From: a virus
DNA length: 41,636 bases
IMG/VR virus record: IMGVR_UViG_3300020395_000030
Location: 1-41,636 of that record
Direction: 5' to 3' (one strand)
A model generated the notes under the pieces. That model had not been told where the DNA came from, made no database searches, and worked only from the letters and a program-made list of their open reading frames with translations. The position numbers were made by a program, and so were the translations under genes. Below, piece by piece: positions 31,701 to 41,627 of this stretch; within the stretch, counting starts at the first letter, position 1, and every line of letters begins with the position of its first letter.

Positions 31701-33491
31701 TGGTGTTCTTGGAAAAATATCTTTAGTATCTACAATAATACTTTCAACAACTTCTCCAGCAAGAACTGCTCTAGCTCTGTTAGGAACTTGATCTATTAAA
31801 ACAAATGGTGGTGAAATATATCCTCTTCCTTGAGTGTTTACCTTAATTTGCTCTAATTTACCATAACGAATACTATCGTAATCCTTATAACTGTAAACAG
31901 GAATACCATTTAAAAGGATACCATTATCTCTTCTAGATGTTGGATATTTTTCAGTTGTTCTTGTAGCTTTCTTTCTAATAATACGAAGTAACTTCTGATC
32001 TAATAATTCTTCATTTACTGTAGATCCATCTAAAATCTTATGTGATGGGAAACCAGAACTTGTAATGTAATAATACTGATCATCTGCAAATATAGAAGAT
32101 ACATCTGTAGTTAATTCACTTATAGATGACTCTAATGTTGGGAGAGTTGGTATTAAAGGTGAATTACCTTGATCAAATATCCATCTAGTATCTTTTGTAC
32201 CAACGTTGACTATCTTACTATCATCAGTTTCAAAACCTGAATTGGAAACTTCAATTTTATCTCCAGGACTTGAATATGGTTGTTTAGTTTCGGGTGTTAA
32301 ATTATATACAACACCAAATGTTAATAGTGTTACGCCAGAACCACTGATAGTTACTGGTTTATAAACTGAAGTACCACTAGGATAAGTAAGTGCTCCTGAA
32401 GGTTGTCTATCATCAATAATAAACTGAGTTACAGTCTTGGAACTAAAAGTAATTGTTTCTGTTCCAATCAAGAATGATCCTGTATCACCCCATCCAAGAG
32501 TAGAAGAAACATTAATTCTATTTCCAGTAGAAGATGTTCCTGAAAATGATTTTTCTGTTTTAGTTTTAGTTGATATTGCAAAATCTCCATTAACAGTTTC
32601 TGGAGCTAATACAATGTTATATACTACTTCATTGTCAGAAGTACCATCAGCATATACATTATCAACAGCAGCATCTGCATACCCATATTCATCAGTAGCA
32701 GTCTGTATAATCTTTTGTCCTATTAGACTCTTTACATCACCAGATATAACCTTACATTTAAGAGCATATACACTAGTCCAATCAGATTCAGATACCTTAT
32801 AGGTAAAATCTCTTGGTTTGTATACTTCAGGTTTATCGTCATGTTCTTTGGCAACGATAGTATTAAAAACAAATTTAATAGAACTATCAGTTCCCTTTGC
32901 TTTATAGAACTTTTGGATATTTTTAATTAAAGTTCTCTTATCTACTTCTCCCTTCAAATACTTTTCAGGGAAAGAACCTAGATACTGGTTCTCAAAATTC
33001 TTTACAAATGCATATAGGAAAAGGTTACTGATGTTATAAACCTTCTGTCCTGAATTATGTGCAGCTGCAGTAGTACCAGTAAAGGTGCTTGAGTTATAAA
33101 GATCACCTAAAGTAGTATTACCACTAACACCCCTAGAGCATCCACTTAAAGTTGTATTAGTTCTAGTTGAATAGAATATAATCTCATCATCTATTCTGAC
33201 GTATCCGTTTTTCTTCGGAAAACTCGTTGCATCTTGTAGTACAATTGTATCATCAGAACTAGAAATACTAGTGCCCAAGATATCAAACTGTCTAAGAATA
33301 TTTTGTTCATAATAATCAATATCAGCGTACTTCTGAATGTTATTAATAACATCCAAGGTACCACCCTGTACCTCCTGTGCTTCATAATACTTCTGAACAA
33401 ACTTAGAGAATAGTTCGTATTCAGTTGTAATAAACTCAGGAAGCTGCGTCTCAATAAGAGTTGAAATTCGCTTAGTCTTTACGGATGGCAT
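22797..33491 (-). CDS. Giant gp7-like baseplate wedge protein, 3564 aa
   Basis: The gene lies between gp6 and gp8, the place of gene 7 in T4. From memory of T4 gp7, its C-terminal region aligns in two separated blocks. Residues about 20-275 (LYAFVKNFENQY..., KFYKAKGTDSSIKFVFNTIV, LIGQKIIQTATDEYG) resemble the gp7 STKGIEASYKFLFKVLY and LVGQTIYTATGR segments. Residues about 1907-1964 (DYSYVIKSKTPIEQWRDLIK, then THPAGFKLFG) resemble gp7 SYYVMKIKSNLPSSRWKSD and HPVGFGF. About 1600 residues of beta-rich modules lie between the blocks, and another 1600 follow. Other parts are nine GxGY-like motifs, two helical modules (about 2187-2258 and 2420-2492) and five scattered 'IGxExxxY...RG' modules. In T4, gp7 is 1032 residues and holds the wedge together. 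Start and frame are secure. The gp7 relationship rests on recalled sequence and synteny. Confidence 0.85.
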   Translation of the reverse strand: MPSVKTKRISTLIETQLPEFITTEYELFSKFVQKYYEAQEVQGGTLDVINNIQKYADIDYYEQNILRQFDILGTSISSSDDTIVLQDATSFPKKNGYVRIDDEIIFYSTRTNTTLSGCSRGVSGNTTLGDLYNSSTFTGTTAAAHNSGQKVYNISNLFLYAFVKNFENQYLGSFPEKYLKGEVDKRTLIKNIQKFYKAKGTDSSIKFVFNTIVAKEHDDKPEVYKPRDFTYKVSESDWTSVYALKCKVISGDVKSLIGQKIIQTATDEYGYADAAVDNVYADGTSDNEVVYNIVLAPETVNGDFAISTKTKTEKSFSGTSSTGNRINVSSTLGWGDTGSFLIGTETITFSSKTVTQFIIDDRQPSGALTYPSGTSVYKPVTISGSGVTLLTFGVVYNLTPETKQPYSSPGDKIEVSNSGFETDDSKIVNVGTKDTRWIFDQGNSPLIPTLPTLESSISELTTDVSSIFADDQYYYITSSGFPSHKILDGSTVNEELLDQKLLRIIRKKATRTTEKYPTSRRDNGILLNGIPVYSYKDYDSIRYGKLEQIKVNTQGRGYISPPFVLIDQVPNRARAVLAGEVVESIIVDTKDIFPRTPDIDITSGRGAVVRAIVTGGKVTSLAIDNPGEYYSSPPLVRIRDNAGRGRFATYNSVVNTDGNITGFEKIDEGNFYNQNTVIVDIIPVGEDASGIPLLKEWNYNRYTKLENELDTENGYIFQNYNNALEYGYGYIANPKALRVSLNDNISNTGSEPSTKTHSPIIGFAYDGNPIYGAFGYENPLDATTDITRMTSSYSLNAARAEGPTVNEYPLGTFNNDYTYTHKSGTLDENNGRFCVTPEFPEGTYAYFITIDSNQVPQYPYIIGENYYSLPVDSNYNSNINQDDIPKNSKKYYVPGMQGNGEGLIASIAEVRSGTVDSIDVINTSDNFSINSQIYFNNDGTEGSEAEAIISSVKGKGVSYLHSRENKVVKLTVIQSAYLFADDTLTQPSSGAYGEIVGTVKNDSTIVLKNVVGTFDNSGTFSAAIKTFTVLLDQRSSYTKGATLSLTDGVNAPIATAEVLEGTTSQNVVQIKVLTGTWIVDDTYFLQSDDLFNTSGTRIVRLTSMSDGLEPFEVNQSVALVETTSPHGLGIGDNVDIDINPNHTTKVKTYYLRKRLYQEATLIPPENKTNINFTGIGKFSILNGGADYTAGTYTTVSLTGGSGSGATATFIVSDAGIVSNVTIQNAGAGYKRGDYVSVADEDLVRSGASQSTARFTLYVDHAGISAGATKLVVDSALGFADNDYIKIGDEILKIVSINNNDISVTRGQQGTDDVDHFDGQEVVLYESRYNFTTNFEIFNTATTGYVQSYDPVTQKIIIVYDYGTLSSNADKVVLSSSFFDASEPKRLVSIKSAGDVNYKFEFSDDNVSFVPNPNVGLQEYYKYKFDTSHSSLTGTYFDISPSNNYNLVTVEKTESTILPGNNGAYTDVIFGFGSRLETNLLTTKIGTDFTNFYYFDRKNVVGSDNAYFSIIQDPLQGTKIINYVTPNRFVYDVPSQPLWDGSGSISYTTTGQFAIGAINTVDIINLGLNYKKVPIIRGVDPNTDYRASATVSFDTTSNIITGVEIVEKGSNYSKPKVIITDGDGSDAEFDIVVRNGEIFSIVVSSPGKGYTYTPTIRIIESDVQAYVSSSTIGIPQSVNIIQNGGGYHEDKTVASSYSSSYVLGVQGTGLVLSLKNPSQLSGQKYWNTPTYIGPFTVGEEVVQKYIDDNTGEEITNARGIVGEWDGETLVISEVTFGEFLYKPDDPFYDGGNYEIYGNGTTISPGGPSGNPAVYPNRAIITSTPVDGGTNIPEYQKGETVVQTIDGVEVLRAKVVEYRKGSNLLKIGEIDGTIRENVLIRSTLRSNVVSKVKTIFVTTFAEEITSFYDNLGYYNSDKGRLGVSNQKLLDSDFYQDYSYVIKSKTPIEQWRDLIKSTTHPAGFKLFGQVDVETDAAASMPEELPKASHFSVIQLWDPAKNTITVENTTHVITQTTQKIENTRIRKGVGSASNSEFLFNENRAFEFSINGTFDGYYDTDGRLQGTTQFQILDDQGIAFTPASAKGIIVTLDGVIQEPEVAYTISGDQIIFANPPLGAGNKNGSTYKGVTFYGKIFQFKDNQYNTKYLKKIRNIFQRSGRWIDAANQIERNAEFIVNETIGYGKETHTSIDWNTKQDDYEANLRAILDAYQHDIRFGGNVKTIDYSSIFNSDDDYLYIQNQKTNTNDLFSYATRLAKLAIRNWDYIDQNVLYFGGGNTVTVSDTTNLAVGMFITSGTAFASGTKIISIDSPTQVTLSNVALANSSQSGGAPVGETSISGTDVATGNNPTSTAVVEPGDSFQVAVGATYTVPTSFTGTGQATFSWSGVQRGKFYKGGQLIGLNRAYIISESLTWAQATYPALNWGSIATKCGRDIGIILDAYVYHLQFGGNEKIVEAAQRYYTKDDYPDSEKVSYISDSLTETLAVFSYAKDLMIQAMRNQLPATDPDVIVDSESPACVEVESALNTFNGIINTILTEGKGLVEKVPQDSNKRGNWTPTLTYSNYNIILDPLLIDQECNNVISAIDSLYDNLSDNILEKSVTRTLPDYVDGESKEFELYWDDNTEVDTEVDEDLFLTINAVLQRPKYTETYPGPDAYWIDRTVIPNKIVFDVAPIWDQDLGAKTVGEPTAVEKVVGIGVGNYKRLTIDYNLVDGVRNGPFLILDVEDYTVQTIESEDSMYVFLDGVLQRKGYSYTVSGPNITFNVPIKKEMKVDIRYLYGRDVGQILNIFDYAPDTYFAKARFTFTGSPSALDDYFKYAWMGDKIGSPIHVWQPMADGTINIIGEISNPFRSGNNVGYDLKCQNTVIESGRPFVFAVKGAYDRTYTFSIEDISNQLLDFQLDSVGRKILTDDNSLWFGTFLGKTHKYPFAYLANNDKIRIEGEEGFRRIKTLPNEATSKDGRNKETLTDDIYGVVSVETYTGITRGEGLSVVATIENGSVTKLTWNQRSYDPLTQPTAYQYETPPILEFIPVDGDGGGASANVLVSKGQVISVDLLNGGSGYSAAPKVIVSRRYDILSERDIGVSLIYIGVNPDVNISGMSAISTINVFANQVAGIDSVSSVPIDSPKDADRHIHDIVQTGKPNVIAGESDGTMPTDDVQQPPSEGAQIVYIEPEPVQYEGEGGVLRLQDSETVLKAEVQDIVSLNSIQTTSRQIIEYINIEIENNSLDNVNYFETAALLDVDLQVNEHVAYIADTTKFDGYGLLMIGNEVVKYHGKLEDRFLRLLRGQQNTTPQTWPAGTYLRQIPEITVAFGGVVTIDSESDVTMVSASASAGGVERKTHRQIETPADFSVTREATEVVIIPPPSGVIDGYEETVYLTDPIIQRSGNAVDVIDVADRYYVDKRDGSQVEIINAVFGISSEYIGQYTKTNAGHTISFFDGIFDDGTAKVSGLSIGLMDQYFPTITIADFTERADSSYSLAGEKFNLVPPSIQNPVAFSSSASGTIGGSVVVATTAYFADEGYLLHDSFGSLSVIKYTGKTATQFTGCTVESGSTSIENNATIIPYQIN
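26014..26230 (-). repeat. Helical module, second copy in the gp7-like giant
   Basis: Residues about 2420-2492: KCGRDIGIILDAYVYHLQFG, then GNEKIVEAAQRYY, and a helix YAKDLMIQAMRNQ. It is the same module as the two in the left-edge giant and as 26716-26930 in this gene. Confidence 0.65.
26716..26930 (-). repeat. Helical module, first copy in the gp7-like giant
   Basis: Residues about 2187-2258: YEANLRAILDAYQHDIRFGG, then NVKTIDYSSIF, and a helix YATRLAKLAIRNWDY. The Cys of the other copies is absent, but the D-x-RFGGN centre and the terminal A-x-RNW are kept. Confidence 0.6.
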
Positions 33492-33497
33492 TCGTCT

Positions 33498-35294
33498 TTA
33501 CTCTTTATATGCAGTGAATGAAGAATTGGCAACATCAACATCTAGATATACCTCACGCATTGCCTTAATATCGTTAGATTTTGGTTTAACTCTAACAGAA
33601 ATGCGATTGTCAAAGAAACTACCTTTAATGATAGTTAAATTATACATCTTAAGTTCGCCTTTTACATAATCTATATCACCGATATCCTTGTCAAGGACAA
33701 CTTTTTCACCAGTTGCAGTATCCAGTCTATATAGGATGATTTTGCCATCGCTATCCTCTAGATACACATCAAAATTAGGATACTCTGTTACTCTAAACCC
33801 AGTGCTGGACAGAGTAGGTTCATCACAATCCTTATCAAATTGATTTTGGAAACATACTTCATAAAAGAAAGTTGAGTTGAGTGAAGGATAGAAATCCTTC
33901 CTCATTGTTACATCTGATATATTAGAATTAATAGATCTATCTGCATCATCTATAACTGCAACAGCTTTACTATGCCTAAACTTGCCATTAAACTTTTCAG
34001 TCCCACTAGTCTCAAGATAAGACTGAACTGAACCGATTACTTTATCTCTAATCTGTGAAGTAGACTGATCAGTAACACTACCATCGTAATAAACCTTACT
34101 TGTTAGCTCAACATATAAAACTGATGGATCTACTAGTTTTGGTTCTACTGAAGCAACAACATAGTTCTTCAACTCTTTTATAATTTCTTGTTTTGTTAAA
34201 GATGTAAGGTATGTTGCATCTTTTGGTTTTAAAGATATAAAAACTTTACCATATTCTGGAGGATCTTGATCTTCCCCACCAAAAATAATGATATCACTTG
34301 TTGCTGGATATACTCTTCTAACTATTGCTTCGTAATCTTGTGCTGTTACTGCTCTTTCTTGTGTTCCATATGACTTAGGAGCAGTATATTTGATTTTATC
34401 AATACTTTCAATCTCTTCACCGCCAGATGAGGCAACTGTAGAGTTAATAGTAGTGGTATATGCATTTGGAGTTACACCATCAGGATTTTCTAATACACCA
34501 GAGAATATAAAGGTTCTAACACCATTACTCTCTGAACCTGAGGTTGTTAGGTATGACACTTCAAAACGTGTACCATCATCTAACTTCTTGCCGAGAACCC
34601 CGTCACCCACTAGGATCTCATACCTCTCATCTTCAATCTCATCTAAGAAGAAGACTTTAGAGTTACCATCAACACCAAGTATGTTATCTGCTATTAGATA
34701 TGGTTCACTGAAGCTTCCACCACCAGGGAAGACTTTTACTCTAATAGTATTGGTGTCTATGTTTTGATTATCAAGAACAAACCTTTGCGATTTCTGTGAT
34801 CCATCAATAGTAAATGTATTAGTAAGTGATGTTCCCTCTTTTACTGGTACATTTGTGAATATTGCTGTATCATTTGCTACCTGTGATTTGAAATCGTCTA
34901 ATACAACATAATTGTAAATGTTGTTATCATAATTTGTTATAAAACCTGTACCCTTCTTAAGTAACAACTCTGTATCACTTGTTGGGTTTGTATAATTTAC
35001 TGTAAATGAAACATATGCTGTAGGAGACGTAGCAGATTTTGGTCTATATCCTAACTGCTTTGCTATTGCTACTACATTGTCTCTGAGAGTGGCAGAATCA
35101 ATGAATAGTTCATTGACTACCATATTAGTATTAAACGCCGTGTAGTACGTATTATAGGCGAGTGTATCTACCAGAGTCGCTAATGCTGATCCTTCAAAAT
35201 CATAATCAGTAAAATCTGACTGTGCCCTTAGGTATTCTTTAAGGGCAACTTTGATATCCTCAAAGTCTAAATTGGCTACCTGTGTATACGGCAT
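33498..35294 (-). CDS. 6: Baseplate wedge protein gp6 (baseplate J-like)
   Basis: A 598-residue protein beginning MPYTQVANLDFEDIKVAL, followed by a helical stretch with LAYNTYYTAFNTNMVVNELF and LRDNVVAIAKQLGYRP, the N-terminal pattern I know from gp6 of T4-like cyanophages. The centre has the baseplate-J arrangement (YLTTSGSESNG, IKYTAPKSYGTQERAVTAQDYEAI), and the C-terminal third is beta-rich. T4 gp6 has 660 residues, so the length fits. In T4, gp6 dimers form the ring that links the wedges to the hub. Its start codon shares one base with the gp25 stop (TAATG), implying translational coupling. A 6-nt gap separates it from the gp7-like giant. Confident assignment. Confidence 0.92.
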   Translation of the reverse strand: MPYTQVANLDFEDIKVALKEYLRAQSDFTDYDFEGSALATLVDTLAYNTYYTAFNTNMVVNELFIDSATLRDNVVAIAKQLGYRPKSATSPTAYVSFTVNYTNPTSDTELLLKKGTGFITNYDNNIYNYVVLDDFKSQVANDTAIFTNVPVKEGTSLTNTFTIDGSQKSQRFVLDNQNIDTNTIRVKVFPGGGSFSEPYLIADNILGVDGNSKVFFLDEIEDERYEILVGDGVLGKKLDDGTRFEVSYLTTSGSESNGVRTFIFSGVLENPDGVTPNAYTTTINSTVASSGGEEIESIDKIKYTAPKSYGTQERAVTAQDYEAIVRRVYPATSDIIIFGGEDQDPPEYGKVFISLKPKDATYLTSLTKQEIIKELKNYVVASVEPKLVDPSVLYVELTSKVYYDGSVTDQSTSQIRDKVIGSVQSYLETSGTEKFNGKFRHSKAVAVIDDADRSINSNISDVTMRKDFYPSLNSTFFYEVCFQNQFDKDCDEPTLSSTGFRVTEYPNFDVYLEDSDGKIILYRLDTATGEKVVLDKDIGDIDYVKGELKMYNLTIIKGSFFDNRISVRVKPKSNDIKAMREVYLDVDVANSSFTAYKE

Positions 35295-35686
35295 TATCGT
35301 GTACGCTCTAAGAAGAATTCTACTGCTATGGGTGCGTCTTCTCTACCGATAATAGTGTAAGATACTTCTACTTCATATCCGTTGTTATCAAAATCAGGTT
35401 CGCAACGAATAGTATCAACTTCAATACGTGGTTCATATTGATTTAAAACATTCGCAACCTCAGATTTAAGAATACCAGCAGATCCATAATCAAGTGGCTC
35501 AAACAAAAGATTCTGTATACCAGATCCTAAGTTTGGTTGAAATGGTCTTTCGCCTTTCCTAGTAAGAAGTAATCCTGTGATTGCTTGCACAATCGCAGCT
35601 TTATCCTTCACCGTGACAAGATCATCAGTGATAGGGTGCTTCTTAAATGTGACGCTTAAATCTTTAAACGTCTGGAAGGTTGGCAT
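35294..35686 (-). CDS. 25: Baseplate wedge/sheath-initiator protein gp25
   Basis: A 130-residue protein (T4 gp25: 132) of the GPW/gp25 family. The family signature is visible at about 42-58: RKGERPFQPNLGSGIQN, followed by LLFEPLD. The C-terminus has YEPRIEVDTI and a beta hairpin with YEVEVSYTI. In myoviruses, gp25 sits at the wedge-hub junction and nucleates sheath polymerisation. No clear Shine-Dalgarno sequence precedes the ATG at 35686. A NATAAATA late box ends 24 nt upstream, so the 5' leader would be very short. It is the first gene of the baseplate transcription unit here. Confidence 0.93.
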   Translation of the reverse strand: MPTFQTFKDLSVTFKKHPITDDLVTVKDKAAIVQAITGLLLTRKGERPFQPNLGSGIQNLLFEPLDYGSAGILKSEVANVLNQYEPRIEVDTIRCEPDFDNNGYEVEVSYTIIGREDAPIAVEFFLERTR

Positions 35687-35708
35687 TTAGACACAGCATA
35701 GGCTGTTT

Positions 35709-36008
35709 CTATTTATCTACACTATAGAAAGTATACTTCAAAAATAACTCTTCTCCCTTCTTAATAGGCTTAATTGTCTTCATGTGATAGATCTTTCCCC
35801 AATCCTCTTCTTCATACCATTTCACACAATTTGGATCTTCACTATGGTTTACAAATCCTCCTAATGGAGTTCTCATAATATCATCATCCACTACAACATG
35901 AGAGATACCAAGATACATCATGGCATCTATATCTGCTTTAGCAAATAGTCCTTGTCCTGCGATAGGACTATCTTTAACATGTAATTCTGGTGGAAGTGCT
36001 TGATACAT
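35709..36008 (-). CDS. Minimal SET-domain protein (putative lysine methyltransferase)
   Basis: A 99-residue protein made almost entirely of SET motifs. VKDSPIAGQGLFAKADI (11-27) matches the SET I strand with its GxGLFA turn. GFVNHSEDPNC (51-61) contains the NHS and PNC elements of the cofactor-binding pseudoknot. IKKGEELFLKYTFY (82-95) is the closing GEEL...Y motif with a catalytic-type Tyr. SET enzymes transfer methyl groups from S-adenosylmethionine to lysines. It is shorter than the usual SET core of about 130 residues, with no pre- or post-SET cysteines, so the substrate-recognition insert is very short. The start shares a base with the purC stop (TAATG). Target unknown; phage structural proteins, host ribosomal proteins or host chromatin-like proteins are all possible. 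Confidence 0.82.
   Translation of the reverse strand: MYQALPPELHVKDSPIAGQGLFAKADIDAMMYLGISHVVVDDDIMRTPLGGFVNHSEDPNCVKWYEEEDWGKIYHMKTIKPIKKGEELFLKYTFYSVDK
35710..35717 (-). promoter_or_regulatory. Late promoter box GATAAATA upstream of gp25
   Basis: A full NATAAATA match on the minus strand, ending 24 nt before the gp25 ATG. It overlaps the last two codons (Asp-Lys) and the stop codon of the SET-domain gene, so the promoter is built into a coding end. A small 5-bp hairpin (35693-35706) would fall in the leader. It separates the metabolic cassette from the baseplate genes. Confidence 0.65.
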
Positions 36009-36781
36009 TAAATTGGTCCTCTAGGGGGTAATTCATATTCTGGTTTCATAGTTCTCTCATTCTCTGCATCATCATCACGAGCATGAATCTGAAGAAGACT
36101 ACCAAGAATCTCTTTATATCTCTCTATCATTTTTTCCCCATCACCCTCTTTTCTAAAAATGTCCTTATCATAACTCTCTTTGGTACCCTGATTCCAGAGT
36201 CGCATTCCATCAGGTGATAGTTCATCAGCCAAGAGTAAATTGCCTTTAGCATCGTATCCAAACTCCAATTTAAAATCTATAAGGTCTAAACTCATACTAT
36301 GGAATATCTTTTTCAATTCCTTATTAATCCACTGAGCACGGTATTCAAACTCTTTAAGCTCTTTACCATAACCCATTAGGTTAATTCTACGGTATGTTAA
36401 AAGAGGATCATCCTTCTCATCACTCTTAAGGTAGTATTCTACCACAGGATGCTCAAATTTAGTACCTTCCTCAATACCAAAGGTATCTCTAACAATAGAA
36501 CCAGTAGCAGCATTCCGAACTACCACTTCAATAGGAATGATATCTACTTTCTTACAGGTCATTGCCTTATGAGTAGGCATATTAACATAATGTGTCTTTA
36601 CTGCTCTCTTTTCTAACATCTTAAACAAGACGGTAGAGATCTGACAACAAACCTCACCTTTACCTTCTATATCTAATTCTTTCTTACCATTACCTGCAGT
36701 AACTTTATCTTCATACTGTATGATAACCTCATCTTCCTTATCAGTGGAAAATACTGTTTTAACTTTTCCTTTTATAATCAT
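36008..36781 (-). CDS. purC: Phosphoribosylaminoimidazole-succinocarboxamide synthase (SAICAR synthetase)
   Basis: A 257-residue PurC homologue (bacterial enzymes about 235-250). PurC joins CAIR and aspartate using ATP in de novo purine synthesis. Visible motifs are the N-terminal GKVKTVF nucleotide loop, VVVRNAATGSIVRD (86-99), DFKLEFG (169-175) and LLADELSPDGMRLW (183-196), which cover the family signatures. The C-terminus has a charged extension ending in PPRGPI. The start overlaps the purM stop by 4 nt (ATGA), and the stop overlaps the SET start. The gene belongs to the purine-synthesis set that marine T4-like phages take from their hosts, presumably to raise nucleotide supply for genome replication. 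Confidence 0.95.
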   Translation of the reverse strand: MIIKGKVKTVFSTDKEDEVIIQYEDKVTAGNGKKELDIEGKGEVCCQISTVLFKMLEKRAVKTHYVNMPTHKAMTCKKVDIIPIEVVVRNAATGSIVRDTFGIEEGTKFEHPVVEYYLKSDEKDDPLLTYRRINLMGYGKELKEFEYRAQWINKELKKIFHSMSLDLIDFKLEFGYDAKGNLLLADELSPDGMRLWNQGTKESYDKDIFRKEGDGEKMIERYKEILGSLLQIHARDDDAENERTMKPEYELPPRGPI

Positions 36782-37776
36782 TGTATTTCTCCTATAACAA
36801 ATGAATCAAATGCTTCTATTAAAGAATCGTAAGCTCTAAGAACATATAATGTATCTTCAACTACATCAGGTGGAACAACCAAGCAATAACCTATGCCTAA
36901 GTTAAAAACTCTCTTCATCTCTTCTTCCTCTATCTCTCCAGCGTTCTGAACGATATTAAAGATTTCAGGACGTTTCCATGATGTATAGTCTACCTCTGCT
37001 CTGAGACCCTCTGGGAGGCATCTGGGAAGGTTTTCCACAAGTCCACCTCCTGTAATGTTTGCCATACCAAGAACAGGTATGTTATCTATTAAAGTTTTTA
37101 CTAACCTAGAATAGATTCTAGTAGGAGCAAGTATTTCTGGGTTTTCCTTTAAAATTATTTTATGTCTAAATGTAAGATACCTAACCATACTAAAACCATT
37201 ACAGTGTAACCCACTGCTTGAAATACCAATTATCTTATCTCCCTTCTTTATATCTCTACCATCTATAATATCTCTTTCTTCTACAACACCAGTACAGAAA
37301 CCAGCAAGCTCAAGATGATCTGGATCTCCCATACGTTCACCGTGTTCTGCTGTTTCTCCTCCAAGTAGTGTACAACCTGCTTCTTTACATGCATCACCTA
37401 TGCCCTCTACAAGGGGTTTGAGGAGTTCTGGTCTAAGTTTATTACATTTGATATAGTCTAAGAAGTAAAGAGGTTCTGCACCGCATGTAATAACGTCATT
37501 GACACACATCGCAACTAGATCTTGTCCTACATCTTTCATGATATCTGGATTACCAGTTGCAAAGAGTGATGTAAGATAGGACTTATTACCTACTCCATCA
37601 GTACCAGATACCAAAATAGGGTTATCATACCCAGAAGGTATTCTCATCATTCCATTAAAACCACCAAATCCACCCAAAACCTCAGGTCTATGAGTGGATT
37701 TTACGATTTCTTTAATGTCATTAACAAAATTATTACCAGCATCTATGTCAACACCAGTAGTTTTATAATCAAGCAT
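36778..37776 (-). CDS. purM: Phosphoribosylformylglycinamidine cyclo-ligase (AIR synthetase)
   Basis: A 332-residue PurM (E. coli 345). It closes FGAM to AIR with ATP, two steps before PurC. Motifs: YKTTGVDIDAGN at the N-terminus, GTDGVGNK (58-65), DLVAMCVNDV (86-95), the GAEPLYFLDY strand (99-108), GGETAE (139-144) and SSSGLHCNG (186-194), all typical of the ATP-grasp-unrelated PurM fold. All key motifs are intact, so it is expected to be active. It overlaps the oxygenase gene by 8 nt at the start and purC by 4 nt at the end. No purL, purN or purH is seen in this window. Confidence 0.95.
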   Translation of the reverse strand: MLDYKTTGVDIDAGNNFVNDIKEIVKSTHRPEVLGGFGGFNGMMRIPSGYDNPILVSGTDGVGNKSYLTSLFATGNPDIMKDVGQDLVAMCVNDVITCGAEPLYFLDYIKCNKLRPELLKPLVEGIGDACKEAGCTLLGGETAEHGERMGDPDHLELAGFCTGVVEERDIIDGRDIKKGDKIIGISSSGLHCNGFSMVRYLTFRHKIILKENPEILAPTRIYSRLVKTLIDNIPVLGMANITGGGLVENLPRCLPEGLRAEVDYTSWKRPEIFNIVQNAGEIEEEEMKRVFNLGIGYCLVVPPDVVEDTLYVLRAYDSLIEAFDSFVIGEIQ

Positions 37777-38338
37777 GTCTTAATAGGTCAAAATTTGCAG
37801 AAACAACGATTCGTCTTCCTTTTACAGGAGGAACTTCATGCATTAAAGTAGATGGCCAAATCAAAAGTTGACCAACTTGTGGTTTTAAACACAATTCTTG
37901 GTCAAACATACCCTCACTTTTCTCTTTACGTTCAAATACTATAGACGAAGGGTTCTCATCTAGCTCAACATAATAAGAAATTGCGAATGCAGATGGCCAA
38001 TGATCATGTGCAACGGTGTAATCACCCTCTTTATAGTCAGCAAACCAAAAATTTCTACATACCCATTCAGCATTACACTTAGGGAAATACCCCTGAGCAA
38101 CAAAATTAACAGCATCTGTGACAGATTTTACAAAATTATCAAGATGAGGAGACATAATTTCATGGGTTCTCCATTCACTATGCCATGCCTTAACGTTACT
38201 AGTGTTACTTTCTGGGTATTTCTCCTTATATTCTTCTAAAACTGCCTTCAGATAGACGTTAATTTCTTCATGACCGTCTATAATAGTATCAAAAATAGGA
38301 AGATACTTCCTAACATGGTGTGTATTAATTTGTCCCAT
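37769..38338 (-). CDS. Fe(II)/2-oxoglutarate-dependent oxygenase
   Basis: A 189-residue double-stranded beta-helix oxygenase. The metal-binding motif is probably H111-x-H113 in VAHDHWPSAFAISYYV, with H167 in LLIWPSTLMHEVPP as the distal ligand and R175 or R176 as the 2-oxoglutarate anchor (GRRIVVSANFDL). The GQLLIWPSxxxHxV pattern and final beta strand resemble the TIGR02466-type putative oxygenases common in marine phages. The first ligand pair is HxH, not the classic HxD, which is also usual in that subfamily. Substrate unknown: protein hydroxylation, nucleic-acid modification and small-molecule oxidation are all possible. It overlaps purM by 8 nt and so is probably co-translated with the purine genes. 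Confidence 0.85.
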   Translation of the reverse strand: MGQINTHHVRKYLPIFDTIIDGHEEINVYLKAVLEEYKEKYPESNTSNVKAWHSEWRTHEIMSPHLDNFVKSVTDAVNFVAQGYFPKCNAEWVCRNFWFADYKEGDYTVAHDHWPSAFAISYYVELDENPSSIVFERKEKSEGMFDQELCLKPQVGQLLIWPSTLMHEVPPVKGRRIVVSANFDLLRHA

Positions 38339-38341
38339 AGG

Positions 38342-38623
38342 TTATCCTTGCCAAATCATTTCAGGCATTTGGTTTTGTCCTGGTTTAAAAACAAACATTA
38401 GTAGAAAATATCCAATAAACCAAACAATATTGAATAACCAAGCTTGTCTCCATAGGTATTTTCTAATACCCATAGAAATAAAGACCCTCTTTACTGCTTC
38501 AGGGTCATCTTCATTACCTACAGATCTAAAAATCTGCTCAATAATCACTGCAATAATGGTTCCTACCACCAAAGGGTAGAAAACAAAGTTTGCAAATGAC
38601 ATTACTGCGATTAAAAAAGTCAT
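38342..38623 (-). CDS. Small membrane protein, two helices
   Basis: A 93-residue protein with hydrophobic helices at about 4-26 and 57-79, separated by a charged loop (SVGNEDDPEAVKRVF) and a basic WRQAW segment. The tail PGQNQMPEMIWQG is polar. The start overlaps the preceding gene by 4 nt (ATGA), and the oxygenase gene follows 3 nt after the stop. The family is not recognised. Inner-membrane localisation is inferred. Pairing with the membrane protein encoded just upstream is suggested by the overlap. Confidence 0.75.
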   Translation of the reverse strand: MTFLIAVMSFANFVFYPLVVGTIIAVIIEQIFRSVGNEDDPEAVKRVFISMGIRKYLWRQAWLFNIVWFIGYFLLMFVFKPGQNQMPEMIWQG

Positions 38624-38934
38624 ATTCGGGGTACTTTTTGAAGTAGTGGAAGTAAATCTTGTTCAACACTTCGCTTAATATCATCAACAACATTAACATC
38701 TAAGTGCATGAATGGTGGGATGATGCCTAGAATACGTAGCAGACCGTCTAGAAAGAGAGCCAAACAAGTAAAACCAAGAATCATACTAATGATAGTTGCT
38801 TCTCGGTTGTGCTTTGCCATAGAAGCCTCGTCTATTTTACGTGCTTCATTAACTGCGTATTCTATTAGTTGATCAACTTCCTCTTTAGTATAACACAAAT
38901 GAGGAAGTATCTCTTTAATTTTTTCTTCGGTCAT
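38620..38934 (-). CDS. Small single-helix membrane protein
   Basis: A 104-residue protein. The N-terminal half is charged and helical (KEEVDQLIEYAVNEARKIDE), one hydrophobic segment lies at about 47-70 (IISMILGFTCLALFLDGLL), and a short amphipathic C-terminal helix follows. It overlaps the next gene by 4 nt. Function unknown. A charged helix before a single membrane anchor could suit a membrane-associated accessory role, but nothing in the sequence is specific. Confidence 0.75.
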   Translation of the reverse strand: MTEEKIKEILPHLCYTKEEVDQLIEYAVNEARKIDEASMAKHNREATIISMILGFTCLALFLDGLLRILGIIPPFMHLDVNVVDDIKRSVEQDLLPLLQKVPRI

Positions 38935-38937
38935 ATA

Positions 38938-39102
38938 TTATTCCCAGTATTCATCTAAACGTTCTAACACATTGGTTAGAATCCTTTGTGCTGCTCCTCG
39001 TTGCCTGTCATCCCATTCAGGATACCAGTGCTTATCATAAAGACCTGTTTTCATCTTATGAATGTAAGCAGTCATGTTGACCTTACTCAGTCTTCCGTTC
39101 AT
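38938..39102 (-). CDS. Small hypothetical protein, 54 aa
   Basis: A short frame encodes 54 residues rich in charged and aromatic amino acids (MKTGLYDKHWYPEWDDRQRG), ending in a leucine-containing helix (ILTNVLERLDEYWE). The stop lies 3 nt before the next start, consistent with the tight gene packing here. There is no Shine-Dalgarno match at the 39102 ATG. An internal ATG at 39075 has AAGG five bases upstream and would give 45 residues, so the start is uncertain. The family is not recognised. Confidence 0.65.
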   Translation of the reverse strand: MNGRLSKVNMTAYIHKMKTGLYDKHWYPEWDDRQRGAAQRILTNVLERLDEYWE

Positions 39103-39736: not shown

Positions 39737-39886
39737 TCATGACCTCCCTTGTCCTCTATATCTCTTCCTCGCTTTATTCGCTGAAGTCGCAGAATACTTT
39801 GTATGCTTCCCAGTACCCTGACGAGTTTTCTTGGGAATTGCCTCAACGAAAGACTGCCCACTCAGAGATGATTTTACTTTTGCCAT
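39737..39886 (-). CDS. Small basic protein, 49 aa
   Basis: A short frame encodes MAKVKSSLSGQSFVEAIPKK, then TRQGTGKHTKYSATSANKAR and KRYRGQGRS. Lys, Arg and Ser/Gly dominate with almost no acidic residues, so it could bind nucleic acid or a negatively charged surface. The start lies 3 nt after the preceding stop. Conserved-looking small basic proteins of this pattern are known to me from marine T4-like phages, but without an assigned function. Confidence 0.78.
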   Translation of the reverse strand: MAKVKSSLSGQSFVEAIPKKTRQGTGKHTKYSATSANKARKRYRGQGRS

Positions 39887-41459: not shown

Positions 41460-41627
41460 TTAAATTTTGACTAATGATTTGGAAATGTTCTGACCAACAA
41501 ACCCTCTCACCTGGAAAGGAATTGTTATGGTTTGGTCGTTGCGTCTGTAGATGAAATGTCGTGATCCTGTTCTATGTAGAACCCACCCGTTTGCACGGGC
41601 GAGTTTCAAAAGTTTCTTAGTGGTCAT
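41460..41627 (-). CDS. HicA-like toxin-fold protein, 55 aa
   Basis: A short frame encodes MTTKKLLKLARANGWVLHRT, then GSRHFIYRRNDQTITIPFQV and RGFVGQNISKSLVKI. This follows the HicA/YcfA layout: an N-terminal helix (KLLKLARANGW), a strand with the GSxH motif carrying the catalytic-type histidine (H24), two beta strands (FIYRR, TITIPF), and a C-terminal helix. HicA proteins are double-stranded-RNA-binding mRNA interferases, normally paired with HicB. The length is typical of short HicA forms. No HicB-like gene follows it downstream; the partner could lie beyond the right edge or be absent. The frame is open upstream to the edge, but the ATG at 41627 fits the family N-terminus. Confidence 0.72.
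   Translation of the reverse strand: MTTKKLLKLARANGWVLHRTGSRHFIYRRNDQTITIPFQVRGFVGQNISKSLVKI

Follow-up and report, generated by a model that had tools for sequence, protein, structure and literature searches.

The 41,636-nucleotide stretch of viral DNA that we analysed (hereafter the window) contains, at 35709..36008 on the minus strand, a 99-residue open reading frame encoding a putative protein lysine methyltransferase of the SET type, here termed mini-SET. We favour, with modest confidence, the reading that this protein is an active, stand-alone minimal SET lysine methyltransferase that travels as mobile cargo among marine phages and whose target most likely lies outside the baseplate. 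The analysis shows the gene itself, its predicted fold, its invariant catalytic residues, purifying selection and its behaviour as cargo; SAM binding, catalysis, closure of the lysine channel and the class of target are inferred.

Sequence, conservation and predicted fold

The mini-SET frame begins with ATG and was recognized by the Pfam SET profile (PF00856) over residues 38-92, with 41.1 bits against a curated cut-off of 22.4 (E 2.7e-10), which places it in the SET superfamily by profile. In sequence comparison the N-terminal part carrying the GxG motif scored poorly (10.3 bits, i-E 6.1), but it fell within the structural matches, which spanned model residues 2-94 or 3-95. PHROG 28741 matched residues 1-97 with E 1.7e-60. 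A chance reading frame is excluded by this match together with 223 related viral loci, 35 invariant columns in an alignment of 28 mini-SET sequences, and a median pairwise dN/dS of 0.10 across 84 phage mini-SET genes (drawn from the 654 of 3486 pairs with 0.1<dS<1). The gene is under purifying selection, and the low ratio indicates that it is not a decaying copy.

The three motifs named in the original prediction are all present on the minus strand. GQGLFA (residues 18-23, 35940..35957) lies on the presumptive SAM-binding side, and NHSEDPNC (residues 54-61, 35826..35849), the putative cofactor and active-site motif, aligns with NHSCEPNC of MLL1. The last residue of GEELFLKY (residues 85-92, 35733..35756) is the presumed catalytic tyrosine, Y92, which pairs with the second tyrosine of MLL1 GEELTYDY in the phmmer alignment. 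S14, G20, F22, G34, R46, P48, L49, G50, G51, F52, N54, H55, N60, E87 and Y92 were kept in all 55 aligned phage and bacterial relatives, and G18 in at least 90% of them. The GxG, NHSxxPN and EL..Y residues expected of a lysine methyltransferase are conserved family-wide.

Structure prediction had been proposed as a check on the SET assignment. An AlphaFold2 model computed from an alignment of 55 sequences had a mean pLDDT of 92 and a pTM of 0.80, with C-terminal residues 95-99 below 50, and is predicted to adopt the SET fold. Foldseek matched the model to 211 PDB chains at E<=0.001, with MLL1 first and vSET third, and the best matches were all SET proteins. Similarly, all rows listed by a second structural aligner were SET proteins, with Z up to 12.1 (MLL3), 11.5 for vSET (3kma; rmsd 2.0 over 87 residues, 31% identity) and 10.4-11.6 for EZH2, SET8 and SMYD2. 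Profile, predicted fold and motifs all agree on a 99-residue SET-domain protein, and together with the invariant catalytic residues they back its identity as a phage SET-type putative lysine methyltransferase. The best matches among viral predicted structures were named SET proteins, including ones from uncultured Caudovirales and a 100-residue Marseillevirus protein; phage SETs are thus already in the databases.

The protein had also been described as shorter than usual SET cores, and the missing part can be located. In the phmmer alignment with MLL1, the query advances from residue 34 to 39 while the MLL1 chain runs from 45 to 80, so that about 30 residues in the region of the SET-I insert are missing. 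Pre-SET and post-SET are lacking as well, nearly all of SET-I is gone, and the chain ends 7 residues after Y92. The channel-closing SET-I and post-SET elements are therefore absent, although they are common rather than universal among SET methyltransferases and not decisive for membership.

Genomic setting and spread of the gene

The window derives from a T4-like phage whose gp6 is 81% identical to that of Synechococcus phages S-B43 and S-WAM2. The minus-strand gene order was as originally reported from the oxygenase onward: p516 (39737..39886), small open reading frames, a 2OG-Fe(II) oxygenase (37769..38338; PF13759, E 3.6e-12), purM (AIR synthetase, 36778..37776; PF00586/PF02769), purC (SAICAR synthetase, 36008..36781; PF01259, E 1.7e-69), mini-SET, and the baseplate wedge genes gp25 (35294..35686; PF04965) and gp6 (33498..35294; PHROG 219, E 5.5e-205). 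The oxygenase, purM and purC are cargo of the same slot as mini-SET. At the contig edge, a 55-residue frame (41460-41627, minus strand) matched the HicA toxin (PF07927, E 8.1e-7).

Translational coupling to purC had been proposed. The overlap itself is real, as the purC stop shares one base with the mini-SET start (TAATG, at 36008), but a functional meaning did not hold up: purC was the direct upstream gene in only 9 of 84 loci, and the purC link was rejected as a functional signal. The one-base overlap recurred in all nine, and the same overlap was found where SET follows 2OG oxygenases (clusters 7, 57 and 66), p516 (cluster 5) or other genes, which points to compact packing as its cause. Within window positions 33491-39102, 5 of 9 neighbouring gene pairs overlap. 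Mini-SET is movable accessory cargo and not a partner of the adjoining purine genes.

Several kinds of 2OG-Fe(II) oxygenase often adjoin SET (L079:2890-3486, L008:453-1208, L069:603-1181 and the window copy at 37769-38338), some overlapping it by one base. This association may reflect either a pairing of methylation with hydroxylation or merely two common types of cargo.

The neighbourhood survey called for in the original prediction was carried out on 84 loci, the best 80 of the 223 close relatives plus four from phage records, a set that leans to close kin of the window and counts P-SSM7 twice, as L001 and as L014. Genes were called with a simple open reading frame picker, and some small or antisense frames are spurious. 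The position just before gp25 proved to be a lasting feature, with gp25/gp6 among the next genes in 65 loci; SET followed nrdA-nrdB in 16 and lay elsewhere in 3, Kolga included. Among further loci (L233-L290, 58 rows, from which five contigs, L234 and L236-L239, were dropped as duplicates of the earlier set), gp25-gp6 was directly or shortly downstream in 39 of 53. The recurring order there was PAAR, p516, variable cargo, SET, gp25 and gp6, with p516 directly upstream of SET in many loci. In siphophage Kolga and its kin, the mini-SET relative sits beside a DnaB/Toprim primase-helicase, and in marine bacterial contigs relatives lie among unrelated neighbours; no partner gene shared across the bacterial SET neighbourhoods was found.

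A gene tree of 84 rows (83 of the 84 loci plus the window) required 3 site changes, the least possible being 2. The tree was rooted on AG-345-P14, with P-RSM6 branching next, and as both are of the gp25 type, the gp25 site appears to be older than the nrdB site; the long branches of these two phages meet, leaving that part of the rooting unsure. Of the 80 loci that rank nearest by gp25, only 6 carry SET, and with 16 of 84 SET loci at nrdB it is not an obligate member of the gp25 module, as a baseplate structural gene would be. Together with 3 isolates these 80 make 83 loci, of which 59 show the whole slot. Some slots without SET hold 2OG oxygenases or genes without a Pfam match, and two of the latter recur between p516 and gp25 (L324:4133-4792 and L212:4806-5309). 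The original prediction saw no obvious explanation for a SET gene at this site. Part of the answer is that the gp25 site belongs to a published hot spot for accessory genes of cyanophages, located between gp46 and gp25 (Sullivan 2010, PMC3037559).

Mini-SET is widespread in ocean phages. A profile search found the family in at least 600 viral contigs, and a search seeded with the Kolga copy returned 71 loci. Six phage genome records carry it, two each for P-SSM7 and P-RSM6 and one each for Pelagibacter phage Kolga and marine virus AG-345-P14. A single scan across bacterial and archaeal genomes brought up 54 loci, mainly in marine MAGs and foremost in Flavobacteriaceae and Porticoccaceae; some of these are probably phage contigs, and MAG contigs with mini-SET, such as L086, L087 and L093, may be phage contamination.

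Activity, origin and candidate targets

We infer SAM binding and catalysis from the invariant residues of the family. In T4-like cyanophages, the gene usually occupies the variable slot that p516 and gp25 enclose. In the infected cell, SAM would be bound in the SET pocket by the GxG and NHS motifs, the substrate lysine side chain would enter a channel opposite SAM, and Y92 would aid methyl transfer to it. Closure of this channel by F94 and Y95 at the C-terminus is a guess, since residues 95-99 of the model have pLDDT <50. As SET-I and post-SET are missing, the substrate is probably a short, exposed or flexible segment bearing a lysine. The natural target would most likely be a conserved cellular protein of the translation, transcription or nucleoid machinery; siphophage relatives beside a primase-helicase and bacterial contigs with unrelated neighbours make this likelier than a baseplate protein.

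The gene at the other end of the slot is a possible substrate. p516 encodes a 49-residue protein rich in Lys and Arg, in which RYRGQG is conserved at the end, related to PHROG 516, a group of unknown function; no Pfam match was found for it, and an orthologue (L046:2831-2971) matched phrog_516 with E 3.8e-18. A relative of the window's p516 occurs in 450 phage records, and the gene looks very widespread in cyanomyoviruses. The S-B43 record (L372, L377) holds two separate copies. Our screen, with statistics that ignore kinship, took in 13 columns of p516 rich in lysine and 8 columns of gp25, and the p516 motif comparison covered 15 places minus ACG-2014f, P-HM1 and MED4-213. One p516 position was lysine in 80 of 80 distinct sequences from SET-plus phages and in 28 of 40 from SET-minus phages, a pattern that is suggestive when counted in this way without regard to kinship. 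The same lysine is present in P-SSM7, P-RSM6 and AG-345-P14.

In the main alternative reading, the lysine methyltransferase would serve structural or packaging proteins of the phage itself, either the gp25/gp6 wedge or p516, which bounds the slot. The steady address beside gp25-gp6 in both sets of loci might hint at a tie to baseplate assembly, and the frequent position of p516 directly upstream of SET and its lysine pattern point the same way. However, p516 occurs in 450 phage records and SET in only 6, so p516 does not need SET; we retain p516 as a weak lead only, as it is found far beyond SET carriers. The lysine screen is further tempered by one gp25 column that differed even more strongly (59 of 81 versus 0 of 53), as phylogeny alone could give. 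Tail proteins were among the targets suggested originally, but gp25 is unlikely as a general target of the family and is disfavoured, because relatives follow nrdB, adjoin a primase-helicase in Kolga or lie in bacterial contigs with no gp25 nearby. We regard the structural-target reading as unlikely overall. Slightly less probable is a SET fold without methyltransferase activity, serving as a SAM sensor, a binding module or a decoy of host proteins. Such a role is suggested by the missing pre-SET, SET-I and post-SET, and without SET-I, an element of the substrate groove, catalysis could have been changed or lost, though vSET, at 105 residues (3kma), is hardly longer. On the other hand, the invariance of N54, H55, Y92 and G20 in 55 of 55 relatives, with purifying selection, is the pattern expected if catalysis has been kept.

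The origin of the gene bears on a further alternative, that phages acquired mini-SET from their cyanobacterial host as a classical auxiliary metabolic gene. Its company in the slot, purM, purC and 2OG oxygenases, would suit this idea, but a close homologue in the host lineage is what such an origin would leave, and the family of the cyanobacterial host almost lacks the gene. Of 300 genomes in the family entered via a Synechococcus MAG, only 2 had strong matches (E<1e-20), the MAG itself being one, and 5 more had weak ones; recent acquisition of the cyanophage gene from its host lineage is therefore improbable. The family of a Flavobacteriaceae locus gave strong matches in 10 of 199 genomes and weak ones in 2, and that of a Pelagibacteraceae locus a strong match in 1 of 53, weak matches to longer frames in 37 and none in 15 (same threshold). 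We consider host derivation very improbable and disfavour it. One genome of the Synechococcus MAG's family carries a 212-residue frame of two tandem mini-SET units (L387 1477-2115, plus strand), the second of which has lost the NHS motif.

An active minimal methyltransferase carried as cargo thus remains our preferred reading. We also entertain, as a rather doubtful extension, that mini-SET represents a large undescribed class of minimal putative methyltransferases without SET-I in marine phages, a counterpart of chlorovirus vSET that would act, in the absence of eukaryotic histones, on lysines of the conserved bacterial machinery or of p516 as a basic, histone-tail-like peptide made by the phage.

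Relation to known SET proteins

The SET fold and short viral SET proteins are already known, and mini-SET adds to them a new and widespread member whose middle is reduced. Little has been described of phages methylating protein lysines: among open-licence articles in PubMed Central, none was found, by title or abstract start, that deals with SET proteins of phages or with lysine methylation of proteins by phage enzymes, and PMC3980110 contains no occurrence of phage or virus. Mini-SET is ordinary as cargo and unusual as a putative enzyme of bacterial viruses. As the family occurs in at least 600 viral contigs and in the cultured phages P-SSM7 and P-RSM6, what a phage methylates becomes a directly testable question, and such a small SET protein is a good subject for learning what the SET-I insert does.

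The P-SSM7 gene PSSM7_204 (annotated T4-like GC 716) is 95% identical to mini-SET but lies after nrdB, whereas the window's copy lies before gp25. PHROG 28741 is the same family, with its function given as unknown. Marine Flavobacteriaceae, Porticoccaceae and Acidimicrobiales have short SET proteins that show about 36-49% identity to mini-SET along most of its length and share the signature LG-x-[ST]-H ... R-x-PLGGF-[IV]-NH. Their contexts differ from those in phages, with orders resembling argG-argC-SET-proC-argD and fabA/fabB-SET-peroxiredoxin/ssb, where the gene names were read by eye from protein starts.

The MLL/KMT2 SET domains gave the best matches in both sequence (E 8.8e-6) and fold (Z about 12) and share the motifs of mini-SET, which by comparison lacks SET-I, post-SET and partner domains and has about 30 fewer residues between its GxG and NHS halves. 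PBCV-1 vSET (A612L; 3kma, 1n3j), a histone H3 Lys27 methyltransferase, is likewise a stand-alone short viral SET protein without pre-SET or post-SET, and matched mini-SET by phmmer with E 4.2e-4. As to a common descent of mini-SET and vSET apart from other SET proteins, the Z score of vSET against the model is within 1 unit of those of MLL, EZH2 and SET8. The bacterial hosts of mini-SET phages have no eukaryotic histones, and the target of mini-SET must therefore differ from that of vSET, whose middle region is still longer than that of the phage protein.
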